Made by a program: the position numbers and the translations under genes. From NCBI GenBank assembly GCA_039030075.1, contig JBCCEW010000003.1, positions 248,001 through 312,000 of the forward strand: a stretch of DNA of 64,000 bases, read 5' to 3'. This stretch comes from Myxococcota bacterium. GTDB taxonomy: Bacteria > Myxococcota_A > UBA9160 > SMWR01. This document shows, piece after piece, positions 5,881-13,517 of the stretch (position 1 is the stretch's first letter; the number at the start of each line of letters is the position of its first letter). The notes under the pieces were generated by a model, which was not told where the DNA came from, searched no databases, and saw only the letters and a program-made list of their open reading frames with translations.

Positions 5881-6813
5881 ATGCCGCGGACCCCGCTCGA
5901 TTCCCACCGGCCGCTCGCCGTCGCCGTCCTCGCGCTCGTGGCATCTGGCCTCCTCACCAGCTGCATCACCCGGCCGGTGAAGGAACCGGTCTTCTCGGAG
6001 CGGGGCGTCGACGTGAGCCTGCGCTCCGAGTCGCGCTTCTTCTCCACCGTCGAGAAGGGGTACGAGCACCCGGTGACGATCGCGCCCGTCCGCGTCGCGC
6101 ACATCCTGTCGCGGATCGATCTTCGACCGCCCGAGGGCTACCTGGTCGCTCTCGAGGGAGAGCCGAAGAAGCGGGTGGCCGCGGTGCGGACCAACGCACT
6201 CTTCGAGATCGGCGAAGGCATCTCCCAGGCCCTCGCCGCGGCCGGCCCCGACCAGGAGGTCGTGGTGATGGTCGTCCGCGAAACCAAGCGCTTCGGGGTC
6301 TTCGACCACGACTACCTGACGAGCTTCCTCGTCTACGCCCGCGACGATCGCCTCTACCTACACATGGGCCACTTCGAGTGGGAGATCCCGAAGCGCCGCA
6401 AGGATCGCCTGCCCGAGCCGCGCGTCGGCAGTGCGCCCCAGCGCTACAAGATCCTGCCGAGCAGCGCGATGTCGCTGGTCAGCAGCCACAGCGTCGCCAT
6501 CGACTGGCGCGACGCGGTGTTTGCGCGTCCCACCCGCACGCGCGTGCTGCCGAGCGGCGAGATCGTGCGCAAGACGATCCTGCTCGAGAGCCCGCCCGAG
6601 GTCGACGACATCGAAGATCCGGTAGCGCGCATGCCGGACGATCTGAGCCCGGAGCAGCTGCGTGCGCTGGCCGACGTCGAGGAAGACCGCCGCGAGGGGC
6701 GCATCACCGAGATCGAGTACCGCTCGCGCCGGCGCCGGATCCTCGATCCGCAGGCGTCTGCCTCCCCCGCTCCGTCGCCCGAGGGCGATGGCGCAGGCGG
6801 GGCCGGGAGCTGA
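5881..6813 (+). CDS. lipoprotein of unknown function with SHOCT-like C-terminus
   Basis: I do not recognise the main domain. The 310-residue protein starts with a signal peptide ending in the lipobox LLTSC (Cys28), so it should be a membrane-anchored lipoprotein. The body (about residues 40-230) has alternating beta-type and charged segments and repeated Ser/Arg-rich turns. Residues about 255-290, DLSPEQLRALADVEEDRREG followed by an ITEIEY turn, resemble the short helical SHOCT module often found at protein C-termini (inference from pattern). The tail is Pro/Ala/Gly-rich. A TAGACT box lies six bases before the ATG. The gene converges on the lipoprotein at 6824, with ten bases between stops. 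Confidence 0.8.
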   Translation: MPRTPLDSHRPLAVAVLALVASGLLTSCITRPVKEPVFSERGVDVSLRSESRFFSTVEKGYEHPVTIAPVRVAHILSRIDLRPPEGYLVALEGEPKKRVAAVRTNALFEIGEGISQALAAAGPDQEVVVMVVRETKRFGVFDHDYLTSFLVYARDDRLYLHMGHFEWEIPKRRKDRLPEPRVGSAPQRYKILPSSAMSLVSSHSVAIDWRDAVFARPTRTRVLPSGEIVRKTILLESPPEVDDIEDPVARMPDDLSPEQLRALADVEEDRREGRITEIEYRSRRRRILDPQASASPAPSPEGDGAGGAGS

Positions 6814-6823
6814 GCGCGCTCCG

Positions 6824-7303
6824 CTACTCCACGTAGCCGAGGGAGCGGAGCATCTCGAGCTCGTCGCTGCCCTCGCTGGCCGCCTTCGCCGCGTCGATCT
6901 GGCCCTGGAGCTGGGTGTCGTCCGGGAACCGCTGCAGGCCGAGGTCGAGGGCCTGGATCGCGACCGTGCCGACGCCCGCGTTGCGCAGCTGGTCGGCGGT
7001 GGCGGCGTACTGGTCGGCGTTCATGTTCTGGGGCCGCTCACCGGCCAGCTTCGTCAGCTGGGCCAGGGCCGCCTCGCCCAGACCGTCCCGGGCCAGGGCT
7101 TCGAGCTTCACGAGTTCGAGCCCCCAGGCGGTGACTTCGTCGGCACCCGCGGCCAACCCCTGGTCGGCCGCCTGGAGCGCATCGGCGTAGCGCGTCTCGT
7201 TCAGGGCCTGGCGCGCCGTGGCGAGGGTGTCGCGAGCCGACTCCCCGCCACACGCGAGGACCAGGCCGACGAGGGTGAAAATCCACAGGCAACGCAGGCG
7301 CAT
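6824..7303 (-). CDS. small TPR-like lipoprotein ending in an LRSLGYV tail
   Basis: The protein has 159 residues. Its signal peptide ends in the lipobox LVLAC (Cys18). The remainder is Ala-rich helix-turn-helix sequence with TPR-like spacing (ALNETRYADALQAADQGL, then AIQALDLGLQRFPDDTQLQG). The last nine residues are EMLRSLGYV plus E. A closely similar ending, RLKGLGYIS, closes the 66-residue protein at 11867, across the divergent region. Such tails are, as I recall, seen in sulfatase-type proteins, which suggests a shared partner. The AGGAG Shine-Dalgarno sequence lies six bases before the ATG. The gene diverges from the phosphatase cluster at 7517 and may serve it. Confidence 0.8.
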   Translation of the reverse strand: MRLRCLWIFTLVGLVLACGGESARDTLATARQALNETRYADALQAADQGLAAGADEVTAWGLELVKLEALARDGLGEAALAQLTKLAGERPQNMNADQYAATADQLRNAGVGTVAIQALDLGLQRFPDDTQLQGQIDAAKAASEGSDELEMLRSLGYVE

Positions 7304-7516
7304 GGGTCGCTCCTAAAGATGGGAATGGGCTCGCCCGATTCGCCCCCCCAGAGCCGCGCGGGTCGCGCCGGTCCTGCGAGGATCGGCGCCGGCGAACCAC
7401 TCCTGGGTGGGGAGCGGCGAGCCTACCGTGCATCCCGCCCTCGTCCCCAGAGCCGCTCGGGCGGTCAGGTAGTCTATGATCCTCCGTTCGCCGGATCCAG
7501 GCCGGCCGAGTACTCC

Positions 7517-9820
7517 GTGAGCCACCACGCCCATTCCGCCCGCCCCGAGTCGCGCCCGCACCCCGCCCGCTGGTGGGCCGCGGGTCTGGTCCTGGCACTG
7601 GGGATCGCCGGTGCGCAGCAAGCCCATGCCTACATCGGCCCGGGTGCCGGCTTCGCGTTCGTCGGCTCCCTGCTCGTCCTGATCGCCACCTTCGCGATCG
7701 CCCTCTCCATCATCCTGACCTGGCCGCTGCGGCTGCTCTACCGGCTCATCACCGTGGGGAACCCCTACAAGGATGCCCAGAGCACGCGCGTCGTGATCCT
7801 CGGACTCGACGGGATGGATCCGGGACTCACGACGAAGTTCATCCGCGACGGACGGATGCCGAACTTCGAGAAACTCGCGAACCACGGCGTCTTCCGGCCG
7901 CTCGACACCAGCGTCCCCTCCATGTCCCCCGTCGCCTGGTCGACCTTCGCCACCGGCGTCGATGCGAGCCAGCACAACATCTACGACTTCCTCACGCGCG
8001 ACCCCTGCAACTACGCGCCGATGCTGTCGTCGACGGACATCGTGAACGCGAAGCGGGTCGTGAACATCGGCCGCTATATGGTGCCGCTCGGCAAGGCGCG
8101 CATGAAGCTGCTCCAGAAGAGCCAGCACTTCTGGAAGCTCCTCGGCGAGAAGAACATCTTCTCGATCATCCAGCGCGTCCCGATCACGTTCCCGCCGGTC
8201 CCCTTCAAGAATGGGATGCTCCTGTCGGGCATGTGCGTACCCGACCTGCGCGGCACCCAGGGCACCTTCTCGTTCTTCAGCACCGAGACCCAGGACGGCG
8301 AGGCGAAGTTCGTGGGCGGTGAGCAGACGGTGCTGCGGCGATCCCCGTCGAAGGACGGGGGAAGCACGATCCGCTCGCGCATCGTCGGCCCCGACCACAC
8401 CATGCTCCGCTCGGGCGGTCGCATGACCCTGCCCTTCACGCTCGAGATCGCGTCCGGCGCCGAGAGCGCCGAGATGACGATCGAGAGCGTGGAAGAGCCG
8501 GTGACCCTGAAGGTGGGCGAGTACAGCGACTGGGTGGAGCTCGCCTTCAGTGCCGGTCTGGGCATCAAGGTGCGGGGCATCGTCAAGCTCTACCTGATCT
8601 CGACGACGCCGGAAGTCCACCTGTACATGACGCCGATCCACATCGACCCGGAGAACCCGGCGATGCCGATCGCGCACCCCGAGGTCTACGCGATCTACTT
8701 GGCGAAGAAGCAGGGGAAGTTCGCGACGCTCGGGCTCGCCGAGGACACCTGGGCGCTCAACAACCGCGTCGTCGACGAGAAGGTCTTCTTCGAACAGGCG
8801 ATGAGCTTCTACGAGGAACGCGAAGCGATGTTCCTCGACGCGATCTCCCAGACGAAGAAGGGCCTGGTGACGACGGTCTTCGACACCACCGACCGCGTCC
8901 AGCACATGTTCTACCGCTATCTCGACCCGACCCATCCGGCGAACGCCGGCAAGGACACGGAAGAGTGGAAGGACGCGATCGGTCAGGTCTACGAGAAGAC
9001 CGACCAGCTGCTGGGCAAGGTCTGGGACCTCGTCGACGACCCGGACACGACGCTGATGGTGATCAGCGACCACGGCTTCACGAACTTCCGTCGCTGCGTC
9101 AACGTGAACACCTGGCTCCGCGAGAACGGCTACCTCTTCTTGAAGGACGAGAACGCCTCCACCAGCGGCGAGTACTTCGACGGCATCGACTGGTCGCGCA
9201 CGCGCGCCTTCGCGCTCGGGCTCACGGGCATCTTCATCAACCGCAAGGGACGCGAGCGCTCGGGCATCGTCGAAGAGGGCAGCGAGTACCGGAAGCTGGT
9301 GCAGGAGATCGCGGAGAAGCTCGGACAGCTCGTCGACCCGGAAACCGGCGAGGAGTGCGTGCGACGCGTCGCCGTGTCCCAGCAGTTCTTCCGCGGTCCC
9401 TACCGCTTCGATGCGCCCGATCTGCTCGTCGGCTGGGAAGGCGGCTACCGACACAGTTGGGAGTGCGCGACGGGCCAGGTCACCGAGACGGTCTTCAGCG
9501 ACAACGACCGCAGCTGGTCGGGCGACCACTGCGTGGATCCGTCGATCGTGCCCGGCATCTTCCTCTCGAACCGGCCGATCGCGGCCGAGGAGCCGCGGCT
9601 CATCGACGTCCCGGCCAGCGTGCTGCGCCTGTTCGGTCAGGAGATCCCCGGCTACATGCAGGGGAAGATGATCTTCCCCGAAGACGGTTCGCAGGGGAAC
9701 GTGGCCGGCATGCTCGACCCGCACAGCCTGCCCCAGAGTGGCGCGGCCCCGGGCGCCCGCATCTTCCCCGAGGAGTCCGGGGAAACCGTCCCGGCGAAGC
9801 AGGCCCAGCAGTCCACATGA
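7517..9820 (+). CDS. alkaline-phosphatase-superfamily phosphodiesterase/sulfatase-like, membrane-anchored (copy 1)
   Basis: The 767-residue protein belongs to the type I phosphodiesterase/nucleotide pyrophosphatase branch of the alkaline phosphatase superfamily. An N-terminal segment with two hydrophobic helices (about 20-38 and 44-78, separated by YIGPGAG) suggests an anchor with the catalytic domain outside the cytoplasm. Metal-site motifs are visible: GLDGMD (Asp98), SMSPVAWSTFATG with Ser137 in the nucleophile position, FDTTDRVQHMF, VISDHGF and SGDHCVDP. The substrate is unknown. The GTG at 7517 is chosen because it opens a plausible signal/anchor; no good ribosome-binding site is seen. 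A TAGTCT box near 7467 could be its promoter. The stop overlaps the ATG of copy 2 (ATGA). Confidence 0.88.
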   Translation: MSHHAHSARPESRPHPARWWAAGLVLALGIAGAQQAHAYIGPGAGFAFVGSLLVLIATFAIALSIILTWPLRLLYRLITVGNPYKDAQSTRVVILGLDGMDPGLTTKFIRDGRMPNFEKLANHGVFRPLDTSVPSMSPVAWSTFATGVDASQHNIYDFLTRDPCNYAPMLSSTDIVNAKRVVNIGRYMVPLGKARMKLLQKSQHFWKLLGEKNIFSIIQRVPITFPPVPFKNGMLLSGMCVPDLRGTQGTFSFFSTETQDGEAKFVGGEQTVLRRSPSKDGGSTIRSRIVGPDHTMLRSGGRMTLPFTLEIASGAESAEMTIESVEEPVTLKVGEYSDWVELAFSAGLGIKVRGIVKLYLISTTPEVHLYMTPIHIDPENPAMPIAHPEVYAIYLAKKQGKFATLGLAEDTWALNNRVVDEKVFFEQAMSFYEEREAMFLDAISQTKKGLVTTVFDTTDRVQHMFYRYLDPTHPANAGKDTEEWKDAIGQVYEKTDQLLGKVWDLVDDPDTTLMVISDHGFTNFRRCVNVNTWLRENGYLFLKDENASTSGEYFDGIDWSRTRAFALGLTGIFINRKGRERSGIVEEGSEYRKLVQEIAEKLGQLVDPETGEECVRRVAVSQQFFRGPYRFDAPDLLVGWEGGYRHSWECATGQVTETVFSDNDRSWSGDHCVDPSIVPGIFLSNRPIAAEEPRLIDVPASVLRLFGQEIPGYMQGKMIFPEDGSQGNVAGMLDPHSLPQSGAAPGARIFPEESGETVPAKQAQQST

Positions 9821-11841
9821 TCCGAAAGATGCTCCGCTCCCACCGCTGGCTCGTCGGCGGAGTCGCGCTGTTGGCGGCGGTCCTGGCCGGGAGCGCCTTT
9901 GCGGCGAAGCGCCAGCCCGGCGTGTTCGTCGTCGGTGTCGACGGCATGGACCCCGACATCCTGAAGCGCCTGATCGCCGAGGGGCAGATGCCCGAGTTCG
10001 CGAAGCTCGCGGCCGAAGGCAGCTTCCAGTCGCTGGGCACTTCGGTTCCGCCGCAGAGCCCGGTCGCCTGGTCCAACTTCGTGACCGGTATGAACCCGGG
10101 TGGCCACGGGATCTTCGACTTCATCCACCGCGATCCGGCCACCTACAAGCCGATCTCCTCGGCGACGCCCCCGGTCGACGATCCGGGCAGTGCGGTGCAC
10201 TTCTTCGGCTACGTGATCCCGACCAGCGCACCGGAAGTGGTCAACAACCGCGGCGGCACACCCTGGTGGGACGTCCTGACCGACGAGGGCGTGAACGTCG
10301 AGGTCTACCGGATCCCGGGCAACTTCCCGACGCCCCCGTCGGACGCGCGAGTCCTCGGCGGCATGGGTACGGTCGACCTGCGCGGCGGCTTCGGCACCTA
10401 CACCCTCTACACGGACCAGCCCGTCGAAGAAGATCCGAAGGGCGACATCCAGCGGGTCAAGGTCCAGGACTTCGACCTCGACGGGCAGGGCGACACGGTC
10501 ACCGCGATCCTGCGCGGGCCGCCGGATCAGTTCCGGCTCGAGCCGGGCGCCATCCCCGGCGACGACGACTATCTGACGAAGGGCGTCACCGTCCACCTCG
10601 GCGCCGAGCGCGGCTCGGCCGTGATCGAAGTCGACGGTCAGCGCGCGCTGCTGCGCGAGGGCGAGTGGTCGCCCTGGCTGGAACTGAACTACGAAGCGCT
10701 GCCCTTCGGTCTCGTCACCGTCTCCGGCACGGTGCGCTTCTACGCGAAGCAGCTGTTGGGCGGCTTCCAGCTCTACGCGTCGCCGGTGAACTTCTCGCCG
10801 GCGAACCCGGCCACGCCCCTCACGAGCCCCGACGATTTTGCGAACGAGCTCTACGAGAGCCTCGGCTTCTACTACACCCAGGGCATGCCCGAGGAGACCG
10901 ACGCCCTGAAGGACGGGGTCTTCGACGACGACGACTACATCCGGCAGGTCGCGCTCGTGCAGGAGGACACCCAGCGGATGGTGTCCCTCGCACTCGAACG
11001 CTTCGAGCCCGGCGACGCCACCTTCGTCTACCTCTCGGATGTCGATCTCCAGTGCCACATGCTCTGGCGCCACGGCGATCCGAAGCACGCCGATGCGCCG
11101 CCCCACCCGGCGCACGATCCGGCGACGGCCCCGAAGCACGAACACGACATCGAGGGCTTCTACCGCGACGTCGACCGCGAGCTCGGTCGCATTCGCGAAG
11201 CGCTGCCGCCCGACACCCTGCTCGTCGTCATGAGCGATCACGGCTTCCAACCCTATACGCGGAAGTTCCATCTCAACGGTTGGCTGCGCGAGCAGGGCTT
11301 CCTCGCGCTGAAGGACGGCGCGACGACCGGTCAGATCGTGACCGGCGACGTCGACTGGTCCAAGACGAAGGCCTACGGGCTCGGCTTCAACGGTCTCTAC
11401 CTGAACGTGGCGGGCCGCGAGGGCGAGGGCAGCGTGGCGCCGGAAGACGTCGACGCGCTGGTGGAAGAGCTCAGGACGAAGCTCGAGGCAATCGTCGACC
11501 CCAAGACCGGCGCGCGGGCGGTGTTCCGAGTGGACCGCGCCGTCGACGTCTATAGCGACGAGCGGCGCGCCGAAGGCCCCGACCTGATCGTCGGCTACGA
11601 CCGCGGGTACGGCGCATCGGACGAATCGACCCTGGGCGAGATCACCGAGGCGATCCTCGAAGACAACACCTCGCGCTGGTCGGGCAACCATCTGATGTCA
11701 CCCGACGTCGTGCCGGGAATCTTGCTGGTGAACCGCAAGCTCGCCGGCGCCGACTACGATCTCACCGACCTCACCGTCACCCTGCTCGCGCACTATGGTG
11801 TGGAGCCGCAGCCAGGGATGGTGGGCGAGGCCATTCGCTAG
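9817..11841 (+). CDS. alkaline-phosphatase-superfamily phosphodiesterase/sulfatase-like, secreted (copy 2)
   Basis: This 674-residue paralogue of the preceding gene starts with a signal peptide (residues 1-29, ending SAFAA), so it is exported. The superfamily motifs are GVDGMD (Asp42), PPQSPVAWSNFVTG with Ser81 in the nucleophile position, YLSDVDLQCHMLWRHGD, VVMSDHGFQ and SGNHLMSPDVVPG. A His/Pro-rich insertion (DAPPHPAHDPATAPKHEHD) follows the fourth motif and is absent from copy 1. The two enzymes are coupled by an ATGA overlap and so are probably made in equal amounts, perhaps acting on related substrates. The exact reaction cannot be read from the sequence. Confidence 0.88.
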   Translation: MIRKMLRSHRWLVGGVALLAAVLAGSAFAAKRQPGVFVVGVDGMDPDILKRLIAEGQMPEFAKLAAEGSFQSLGTSVPPQSPVAWSNFVTGMNPGGHGIFDFIHRDPATYKPISSATPPVDDPGSAVHFFGYVIPTSAPEVVNNRGGTPWWDVLTDEGVNVEVYRIPGNFPTPPSDARVLGGMGTVDLRGGFGTYTLYTDQPVEEDPKGDIQRVKVQDFDLDGQGDTVTAILRGPPDQFRLEPGAIPGDDDYLTKGVTVHLGAERGSAVIEVDGQRALLREGEWSPWLELNYEALPFGLVTVSGTVRFYAKQLLGGFQLYASPVNFSPANPATPLTSPDDFANELYESLGFYYTQGMPEETDALKDGVFDDDDYIRQVALVQEDTQRMVSLALERFEPGDATFVYLSDVDLQCHMLWRHGDPKHADAPPHPAHDPATAPKHEHDIEGFYRDVDRELGRIREALPPDTLLVVMSDHGFQPYTRKFHLNGWLREQGFLALKDGATTGQIVTGDVDWSKTKAYGLGFNGLYLNVAGREGEGSVAPEDVDALVEELRTKLEAIVDPKTGARAVFRVDRAVDVYSDERRAEGPDLIVGYDRGYGASDESTLGEITEAILEDNTSRWSGNHLMSPDVVPGILLVNRKLAGADYDLTDLTVTLLAHYGVEPQPGMVGEAIR

Positions 11842-11866
11842 CGCCCTCGCGGGCAAGGAGAAGCGC

Positions 11867-12067
11867 ATGTTTGGAGGCAACCAAGTCAAGGTCAAGATCG
11901 ACCGCGACCTCTTCGATCGGGTCCGCAAGGTGGCCGACGTCGCGGGCTACGCGACGACCGAAGAGTTCATCGTCCATGTGCTGGAGAAGGAGATGCTCCA
12001 CTTCGAGGACGCCGGCTCCGACGACGACATCCGCGAGCGGCTGAAGGGTCTCGGCTACATCTCGTAG
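11867..12067 (+). CDS. 66-residue ribbon-helix-helix-like protein with LKGLGYI tail
   Basis: The ATG at 11867 is preceded by AAGGAG with a five-base gap, a strong start. Residues 7-12 (VKVKID) look like a beta strand. Two helices follow (DLFDRVRKVADVAGYAT and TEEFIVHVLEKEM), the order of a MetJ/Arc-type ribbon-helix-helix domain. After an acidic linker (DAGSDDD) the protein ends IRERLKGLGYIS, a tail very like that of the lipoprotein at 6824. It could be a DNA-binding autoregulator or a small adaptor that uses the fold for dimerisation. It lies 25 bases after the second phosphatase gene, inside the cluster. Confidence 0.8.
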   Translation: MFGGNQVKVKIDRDLFDRVRKVADVAGYATTEEFIVHVLEKEMLHFEDAGSDDDIRERLKGLGYIS

Positions 12068-12087
12068 CGCCCCGCCTGCCGCGCCCG

Positions 12088-12906
12088 ATGCAGACCTTCA
12101 ACCAGATCTTCAGCGCCATCTTCGATGTCGTGCTCGCGCCCTTCGGGCACGAGCCCGCCGCGTTCGACCTGGTGGTGTGGCCGGTGCTGATGGGCGTGTT
12201 GGCGATCGCGGTGTACAAGCTCGTCTCGAACCAGAAGGCGCTCACCCGGGTCAAGAGCCAGATCAGCATGCGGCTGCTCGAGATCCGGCTGTTCAGCCAC
12301 GACATCGGGCAGGTGCTGCGCTCGACCGGCGCCATCCTCTGGAAGAACACGCTCTACCTGGGCAACCACATGATCCCGATGGCGGTGATGCTCGGCCCGT
12401 TCGTGGTGATCCTCGCGCAGCTGGTCGCGAACTACGCCTACACGCCCTCGCCGCCGGGAGCCGTCGAGCTGCTCCACGTGCGCCTCGATCCCGATGCGGG
12501 CGTGCCAGCGCGCGAGGTGCAGCTGACCCTTCCCGAGGGCGTCGTGCTCGATGCGCCGCCGGTGCGGACGGCCGATCACCAGGCGTTCTTCCGGCTGCGC
12601 GCCGAGCAGCCGGGCGACCACGTGCTCGCGGTCGACGTCGCGGGCGAACGCTTCGAGAAGGGGTGGGCCGTCGGAGGGGACGCCCGCAAGGTGCCGCTGA
12701 AGCGACTACGCGGACTCGAGGCAATCCTCTACCCGGGCGAGGCCGCCTTGCCCGGCAACGGTCCCGTACTCGGGATCGAACTCGAAACCCACATGCGCGC
12801 GCTGGGGCCGCTGCCCGCCGGCGAGCTCGGCATCGTGCTCATCACCCTGGTGCTGTCCCTCGTCGCCGGCTTCGCGGTGAAGGGCCTGTTCGGAGTGACC
12901 ATCTGA
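12088..12906 (+). CDS. integral membrane protein of unknown function (EMC3/TMCO1-like N-terminus?)
   Basis: The 272-residue protein has one helix near residues 25-45, a basic amphipathic stretch (residues about 48-70, KALTRVKSQISMRLLEIRLF), a second hydrophobic region around 95-120, a beta-rich extracytoplasmic part (about 125-240), and a final helix (about 247-266). The first half, a helix followed by a charged coiled segment and then another helix, resembles the Oxa1-superfamily DUF106/EMC3 plan. I hold this weakly. The gene starts 20 bases after the ribbon-helix-helix gene, and its TGA overlaps the ATG of the sulfotransferase by one base, so it belongs to the cluster. A role as scaffold or exporter for the cluster's substrate is inference only. 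Confidence 0.75.
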   Translation: MQTFNQIFSAIFDVVLAPFGHEPAAFDLVVWPVLMGVLAIAVYKLVSNQKALTRVKSQISMRLLEIRLFSHDIGQVLRSTGAILWKNTLYLGNHMIPMAVMLGPFVVILAQLVANYAYTPSPPGAVELLHVRLDPDAGVPAREVQLTLPEGVVLDAPPVRTADHQAFFRLRAEQPGDHVLAVDVAGERFEKGWAVGGDARKVPLKRLRGLEAILYPGEAALPGNGPVLGIELETHMRALGPLPAGELGIVLITLVLSLVAGFAVKGLFGVTI

Positions 12907-13517
12907 TGCTCCGCGCCCTGCGCAAACTCTTCGGCGGTGATCGCGGCGAGCCGCTGGTGGTCGTGAGCGGGCTGCCGCGCTCGGGCACCTCCATGATGAT
13001 GCGAATGCTCGAGGCCGGCGGCGTGCCCATCCTCTCCGATGGTGAGCGCGAAGCCGACGTCGACAATCCGAAGGGCTATTTCGAGCTCGAGCGCATCAAG
13101 GATCTCGAGAACGAGACGGACAAGTCGTACCTGCAGGCCGGGCGAGGCAAAGCGGTCAAGGCGATCTCCTTCTTGATCAAGGATCTGCCCGACGACAACG
13201 ACTACCGGGTCATCTTCATGCGCCGCGACCTCGACGAAGTGCTCGCGAGCCAGAAGAAGATGATCGACCGCCTGGACCAGGGCGACACGAGCGCCGAGGA
13301 CGAGGCGATGAGGGAGGCCTTCCGCAACGACATCGTGCGGGTGCGCCTCTACTGCAGGAACCACGAGAACTTCGAGCTCATCGAAGTGCACTACAAACAG
13401 GCCGTCGAAGACCCGGCCGCCGTCGCCCAGGAGGTGAACGCCTTCCTCGACGGAAAGCTCGACGAGACCGCCATGCGCGAAGCCGTCGACGCGAGCCTGT
13501 ACCGGAATCGGCGCTGA
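12906..13517 (+). CDS. small sulfotransferase-family protein
   Basis: The 203-residue protein has the PAPS-binding P-loop GLPRSGTSM (residues 22-30). It also has the second PAPS signature VIFMRRDLDEVLASQKKM, in which an Arg near 106 and Ser115 would contact the 3'-phosphate. Known members move sulfate from PAPS to a hydroxyl group of a sugar, lipid or protein. It is compact, near the lower size limit for the family. It ends the cluster of two phosphatase/sulfatase-superfamily enzymes. This suggests that the cluster adds and removes charged groups on one cell-envelope molecule (inference). The ATG overlaps the previous TGA. Confidence 0.87.
   Translation: MLRALRKLFGGDRGEPLVVVSGLPRSGTSMMMRMLEAGGVPILSDGEREADVDNPKGYFELERIKDLENETDKSYLQAGRGKAVKAISFLIKDLPDDNDYRVIFMRRDLDEVLASQKKMIDRLDQGDTSAEDEAMREAFRNDIVRVRLYCRNHENFELIEVHYKQAVEDPAAVAQEVNAFLDGKLDETAMREAVDASLYRNRR

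Follow-up and report, generated by a model that had tools for sequence, protein, structure and literature searches.

A putative C-terminal docking tail associated with alkaline phosphatase-superfamily enzymes in a conserved Myxococcota gene cluster

Analysis of a window of 64,000 nt from a Myxococcota genome (assembly GCA_039030075.1, contig JBCCEW010000003.1, positions 248,001 to 312,000) identified a conserved gene cluster in which two alkaline phosphatase (AP)-superfamily enzymes, AP1 and AP2, are encoded next to two proteins of unrelated fold, RHH and LIPO, which share an LxxLGY C-terminal tail. On the strength of its sequence distribution, this tail is, on balance, likely to represent a docking element that AP-type enzymes either possess themselves (in cis) or obtain from another protein (in trans). 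The cluster itself is considered somewhat likely to encode a two-sided membrane module, which would be built on AP1 and AP2, with tails supplied in trans and with the sulfotransferase SULT and the membrane protein MEMB arranged around this core. The AP superfamily is large, and for most of its members we know of no partner or substrate. A description of the tail, of an association of RHH with the AP superfamily or of this gene set was not found in the open-access literature, and the cluster is therefore regarded as undescribed on a provisional basis.

Results

The features of the cluster are listed in Table 1. The first-pass annotation had reported two AP-superfamily genes in tandem with an ATGA overlap; this overlap is present and both gene products matched the type I phosphodiesterase family PF01663 (AP1, E 2.4e-32, 113 bits; AP2, E 1.2e-38, 134 bits; cut-off 23 bits). 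The same annotation had described the genes as coupled end to end, which applies to the AP1/AP2 junction and to the MEMB/SULT junction, a TGATG overlap, but not to AP2 and RHH or to RHH and MEMB, which are separated by gaps of 25 nt and 20 nt, respectively.

Table 1. Features of the AP1-AP2 cluster, with positions in the window
Feature	Position	Strand	Description
LIPO	6824-7303	-	Lipoprotein, 159 aa, TPR-like helices, divergent from AP1, C-terminus LRSLGYVE
LIPO tail codons and stop	6824-6850	-	
AP1	7517-9820	+	Type I phosphodiesterase-fold enzyme, 767 aa, GTG start, no LGY tail
AP2	9817-11841	+	Second type I phosphodiesterase-fold enzyme, 674 aa, signal peptide, no LGY tail
RHH	11867-12067	+	66 aa, resembles ribbon-helix-helix proteins, predicted cytosolic, C-terminus LKGLGYIS
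RHH tail codons and stop	12041-12067	+	
MEMB	12088-12906	+	Membrane protein, 272 aa, predicted TM1 - cytosolic helices - TM2 - Ig/filamin-like domain - TM3
Ig/filamin-like domain of MEMB	12448-12789	+	Residues ~121-234, inserted between TM2 and TM3
SULT	12906-13517	+	Short sulfotransferase, 203 aa, PAPS-binding loops GLPRSGTS and RRDLDEVLASQ

The gene order, with LIPO divergent from AP1-AP2-RHH-MEMB-SULT, was kept in approximately 35 Myxococcota genomes that represent many families of the phylum, with flanks that vary from genome to genome, which supports the earlier view that these genes form a system. Within the class, RHH was found in 19 and MEMB in 21 of 91 genomes, and these were essentially the same genomes (one MEMB match, L098, was left out as spurious). 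The search outside the Myxococcota covered plasmid records, and no plasmid occurrence of MEMB was found there. Loci L062 and L096 have no SULT gene, and in L063 it is displaced; such absences are weak evidence because the genomes are mostly MAGs. Insertions of ~3.5 kb were observed within the otherwise gapless module between AP2 and RHH in L092 and between MEMB and SULT in L079. Clustering of the flanking ORFs revealed that the module alone recurs and that other common neighbours represent the chromosomal context of close relatives, so that flanking genes were rejected as indicators of a pathway. A gene encoding a lipoprotein-like protein at 5881-6813 of the window is a neighbour of the module in some close relatives only (e.g., L051, L053 and L055).

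Both AP1 and AP2 contain the metal ligands and the nucleophile of type I phosphodiesterases, the conserved active-site residues being D98, S137, H463, D518, H519 and H671 in AP1 and D42, S81, D410, H414, D474, H475 and H625 in AP2, and the nearest solved relatives of AP2 are NPP phosphodiesterases. The C/S-x-P-x-R motif of formylglycine (S1) sulfatases is not found in AP1 or AP2, where SPVAWS is present at the nucleophile instead. While AP1 and AP2 thus share the metal ligands and the Ser/Thr nucleophile position with the NPP/phosphonoacetate hydrolase family (PF01663), they differ from this family in occurring as a pair whose predicted topologies are opposite and in having large inserts. An LGY tail was not found on AP1 or AP2 in any genome examined.

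AP1 had been annotated as membrane-anchored and AP2 as secreted. The N-terminus of AP1 indeed contains two hydrophobic segments separated by a conserved YIGPGAG loop, a two-helix hairpin, and AP2 starts with a signal peptide, which in several orthologues includes a lipobox indicative of a lipoprotein. Across all 29 AP1 orthologues analyzed, net charge was +3 to +10 after TM2 and 0 or -1 in the loop; by the positive-inside rule, the strongly positive stretch after TM2 places the catalytic domain of AP1 on the cytosolic side, a prediction that corrects the earlier view of this enzyme. Since RHH has no signal peptide, LIPO is a lipoprotein and AP2 is exported, each compartment is predicted to contain a tail carrier together with an AP enzyme that has no tail, that is, AP1 and RHH in the cytosol and AP2 and LIPO in the periplasm.

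The LRSLGYVE terminus of LIPO and the LKGLGYIS terminus of RHH, both pointed out in the first-pass annotation, were each confirmed, and the L..LGY columns were 100% identical among complete orthologues of LIPO (n = 22) and RHH (n = 37), against a mean of 39% and 64%, respectively, in the remaining columns; the LIPO of L083, which has extra residues after LGY, was left out of this count. A search of the DNA of the 91 genomes of the class with the pattern LxxLGY[IV]x-stop yielded 356 matches, compared to 8 for the reversed-pattern control. The possibilities that the tail occurs at random and that the genes are not neighbours elsewhere, which together had been named as evidence against a system, are thus contradicted by these counts and by the conserved gene order. 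The 29 tail loci sampled comprised four LIPO genes, one RHH gene and a spurious frame of 14 residues. Among the 23 other carriers, an AP-superfamily domain, either sulfatase or type I phosphodiesterase, was found in 22, and no domain in the last. When all tails of two genomes were considered, at least 29 of 35 followed an AP-superfamily domain encoded on the same strand, at a distance of 250-800 nt. The link between this tail and sulfatase-type proteins, which the first-pass annotation had stated, is therefore supported.

None of the sampled tailed "sulfatases" carries the formylglycine motif [CS]xPxR at the active site, and several have T-x-P there; therefore, "sulfatase" is here the name of a fold and need not be the function. 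A search for the tail among PDB sequences retrieved chance helices only. In the home genome, 12 sulfatase-domain matches were found compared to one tailed sulfatase, and a large number of the AP enzymes in these genomes lack both a tail and a known partner. The number of sulfatase-domain matches was 108 in G031 and 51 in G020, which are also the genomes with the highest LGY-tail counts. A secreted sulfatase-fold enzyme encoded on contig C27 of the home genome (L066:73-1527) ends in LRSLGYVE, almost identical to the LIPO tail, and no active-site [CS]xPxR was seen in this protein.

Of the two tail carriers in the cluster, LIPO showed only a weak TPR match in Pfam; its orthologues were identified in 23 loci, with the lipobox Cys18 and L..LGY being invariant. 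Scans against Pfam and NCBIfam did not assign RHH or MEMB to a confident family, and a weak RHH_1 match was obtained for 6 of 22 RHH orthologues (best E 0.0016). The AF2 monomer of RHH consists of helices without a strand and had no fold match with Foldseek. The invariant residues of RHH are L59, G61, L62, G63, Y64 and I65, and L..LGYI was found in all complete orthologues. RHH resembles CopG/Arc-type ribbon-helix-helix proteins, including antitoxins, in being small and helical and in its weak RHH profile matches, but differs from them in that its C-terminal LGY tail is invariant and its neighbours belong to the AP superfamily rather than being a toxin. SULT matched PF13469 (E 1.1e-12, 49.1 bits; cut-off 27) and has intact 5'-PSB and 3'-PB loops, with PRSGTS and RRDLDEVLAS conserved in 15 orthologues.

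Further loci indicate that the tail can be supplied in different ways. In divergent loci without LIPO, its place on the AP1 side is taken by an RHH paralogue (L062) or by a tailed sulfatase-fold enzyme (L095 and L097), and a tailed sulfatase-fold gene is found close by in L063. In another Myxococcota locus (L152:7683-11306; G251:C545), three genes follow one for a tail-less type I phosphodiesterase; the first product resembles APS kinase and has a degenerate P-loop, the second is an RHH protein and the third an ABC ATPase, and each of the three ends in LxxLGY. No tail was seen on homologues of this ABC ATPase from other loci than L152, and the tail as a general trait of the ATPase family was therefore rejected.

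The plasmid search with RHH yielded one borderline haloarchaeal match (E 0.08), which adjoins an alkaline phosphatase family gene and ends in VTDRLSDLGYLD. An iterated search identified ten haloarchaeal RHH-LGY proteins, all with the LGY tail and all encoded in or near glycan-biosynthesis genes; as the query was tailed, these tails are not independent evidence, while the neighbours of the genes are. Six of the ten genes directly abut an AP/sulfatase gene (plasmid loci L128, L129, L130, L132, L133 and L137) and four are not immediately beside one. None of the six abutting enzymes and none of four others within a few genes has a tail, whereas all five located farther away in these loci carry it in cis (P = 0.0003, with the "near" class set post hoc; P = 0.04 for strict adjacency). 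These haloarchaeal enzymes start at the catalytic core and have no signal peptide. Tail-less RHH proteins from the same search were found beside a RelE-type toxin gene or other genes and not beside AP genes. The glycan cluster of L129 also encodes a hypothetical protein of 308 residues that ends in RLRALGYV (L129:12522-13448). Taken as a pattern in sequence data, the occurrence of the tail either in cis or in trans fits what may be expected of a docking peptide.

A profile of the MEMB family matched archaeal MJ0480 (DUF106, PDB 5c8j) with E 2.4e-6, TM1-TM2 and TM3 being colinear, and with the TM core alone this protein was the sole match up to E 10 (E 1.3e-5). Comparison of MEMB and MJ0480 by hhalign gave 75%, compared to 0.2% for the reversed-sequence control. 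The Pfam model PF01956 (EMC3_TMCO1) did not match single MEMB members and had no match in the home genome. In the AF2 model, which was based on an alignment of only 2 sequences, pLDDT was <50 for the TM segments and ~85 over most of the insert domain, for which filamin profile matches (E ~1e-3) and weak Ig/filamin fold matches were also obtained. Foldseek searches with this model returned only weak matches to Ig/filamin-type and other beta domains, a restriction that reflects the low confidence of the TM part. MEMB is therefore a probable but not a proven member of the Oxa1/DUF106 superfamily, given the low confidence of the modelled TM fold and the lack of a match to the Pfam EMC3_TMCO1 model. 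The colinear arrangement of TM1, cytosolic helices, TM2 and TM3 is shared with members of this superfamily, such as DUF106/MJ0480, EMC3, TMCO1, GET1 and YidC (PMC8887752, PMC8675477); in contrast to these, MEMB is bacterial, its TM2 and TM3 are separated by an Ig/filamin-like domain, and it scores below the Pfam model. The literature on the superfamily treats DUF106 as an archaeal family and names YidC as the member found in prokaryotes.

Discussion

In the proposed mechanism, the cytosol-facing AP1 and the periplasm-facing AP2 would form the core of the module, with RHH supplying the tail in trans in the cytosol and LIPO supplying it in the periplasm. The tail would dock on the AP-fold domain and complete an oligomer or an active-site entrance, which would couple the enzyme to its partner. 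A precedent may be found in the AP-superfamily enzymes SmCS (choline sulfatase) and RlPMH (phosphonate monoester hydrolase), in which a C-terminal tail reaches the neighbouring protomer; in choline sulfatase, this tail contributes to the active-site entrance of the neighbour and is essential for activity (PMC5870055). In SmCS and RlPMH, however, the enzyme itself always contains the tail, which has no traceable LxxLGY, whereas AP1 and AP2 lack a tail and unrelated proteins carry it. SULT could add sulfate from PAPS in the cytosol, and MEMB could retain a lipid-linked or membrane substrate or move it between the faces. Taking into consideration the topology, the presence of SULT, the archaeal glycan context and the lipid scrambling shown in vitro for Oxa1-type proteins (PMC10491306), the wider role of the module may be a two-sided modification, by phosphoester or sulfate, of a substrate that is lipid-linked or resides in the membrane. 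The assignment of any particular substrate class to the cluster would be doubtful at best.

Several other explanations were considered for the tail. Since the tail is part of an AP enzyme itself in most carriers, it could represent a helix cap that stabilizes the AP-fold domain, with the C-termini of RHH and LIPO being look-alikes that have no functional link to the enzymes. This seems improbable given that RHH and LIPO have unrelated folds and yet keep L..LGY without exception beside AP enzymes that have no tail, and that the same pattern is seen in haloarchaea and for the APS-kinase-like protein and the ABC ATPase at L152. Recognition of the tail by a common third factor, such as a protease, chaperone, maturase or scaffold, instead of by the AP enzyme would agree with the different folds of the carriers, and tags for sorting or degradation are known to occur at C-termini. 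Such a factor, which we regard as only slightly less improbable, would need to act on carriers from either compartment, cytosol or periplasm, and from archaea as well as bacteria; furthermore, the flanks contain no other recurrent gene, the only recurrent neighbour is an AP enzyme, and the AP enzymes found beside trans carriers are the tail-less ones.

The resemblance of RHH to CopG/Arc/NikR-type proteins could indicate a DNA-binding autoregulator within an ordinary hydrolase operon, with a tail that senses the level of enzyme. The position of the RHH gene inside the operon, between AP2 and MEMB, and the finding that tail-less RHH homologues adjoin toxin or other genes and not AP genes both speak against this explanation, which also does not account for the exported LIPO and is thus quite unlikely. 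AP-superfamily hydrolases often scavenge phosphate or sulfate, and the cluster could likewise serve nutrition by hydrolysing phosphate or sulfate esters from outside the cell, in which case MEMB and SULT would be passengers unrelated to this function. Of all the explanations considered, this one appears the least likely, considering that AP1 is predicted to be cytosolic, that MEMB and SULT are kept in strict order and that no uptake genes recur in the flanks.

The docking reading of the tail may also extend beyond this cluster. We tentatively suggest, at slightly less than even confidence, that LxxLGY serves the AP superfamily as a general tag, in archaea as well as in bacteria, and is either carried in cis or provided by unrelated trans carriers (i.e., RHH, the TPR lipoprotein, the APS-kinase-like pseudoenzyme and the ABC ATPase), and that in Myxococcota this tag has been built into a transmembrane machine together with a bacterial Oxa1-superfamily protein. 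If this is true, a short C-terminal tag would pair proteins with AP enzymes and could allow functions to be assigned by sequence in both bacteria and archaea. Moreover, MEMB would represent a bacterial Oxa1-superfamily-like protein that is distinct from YidC and placed between cytosolic and periplasmic enzymes, which would extend the superfamily beyond protein insertion.
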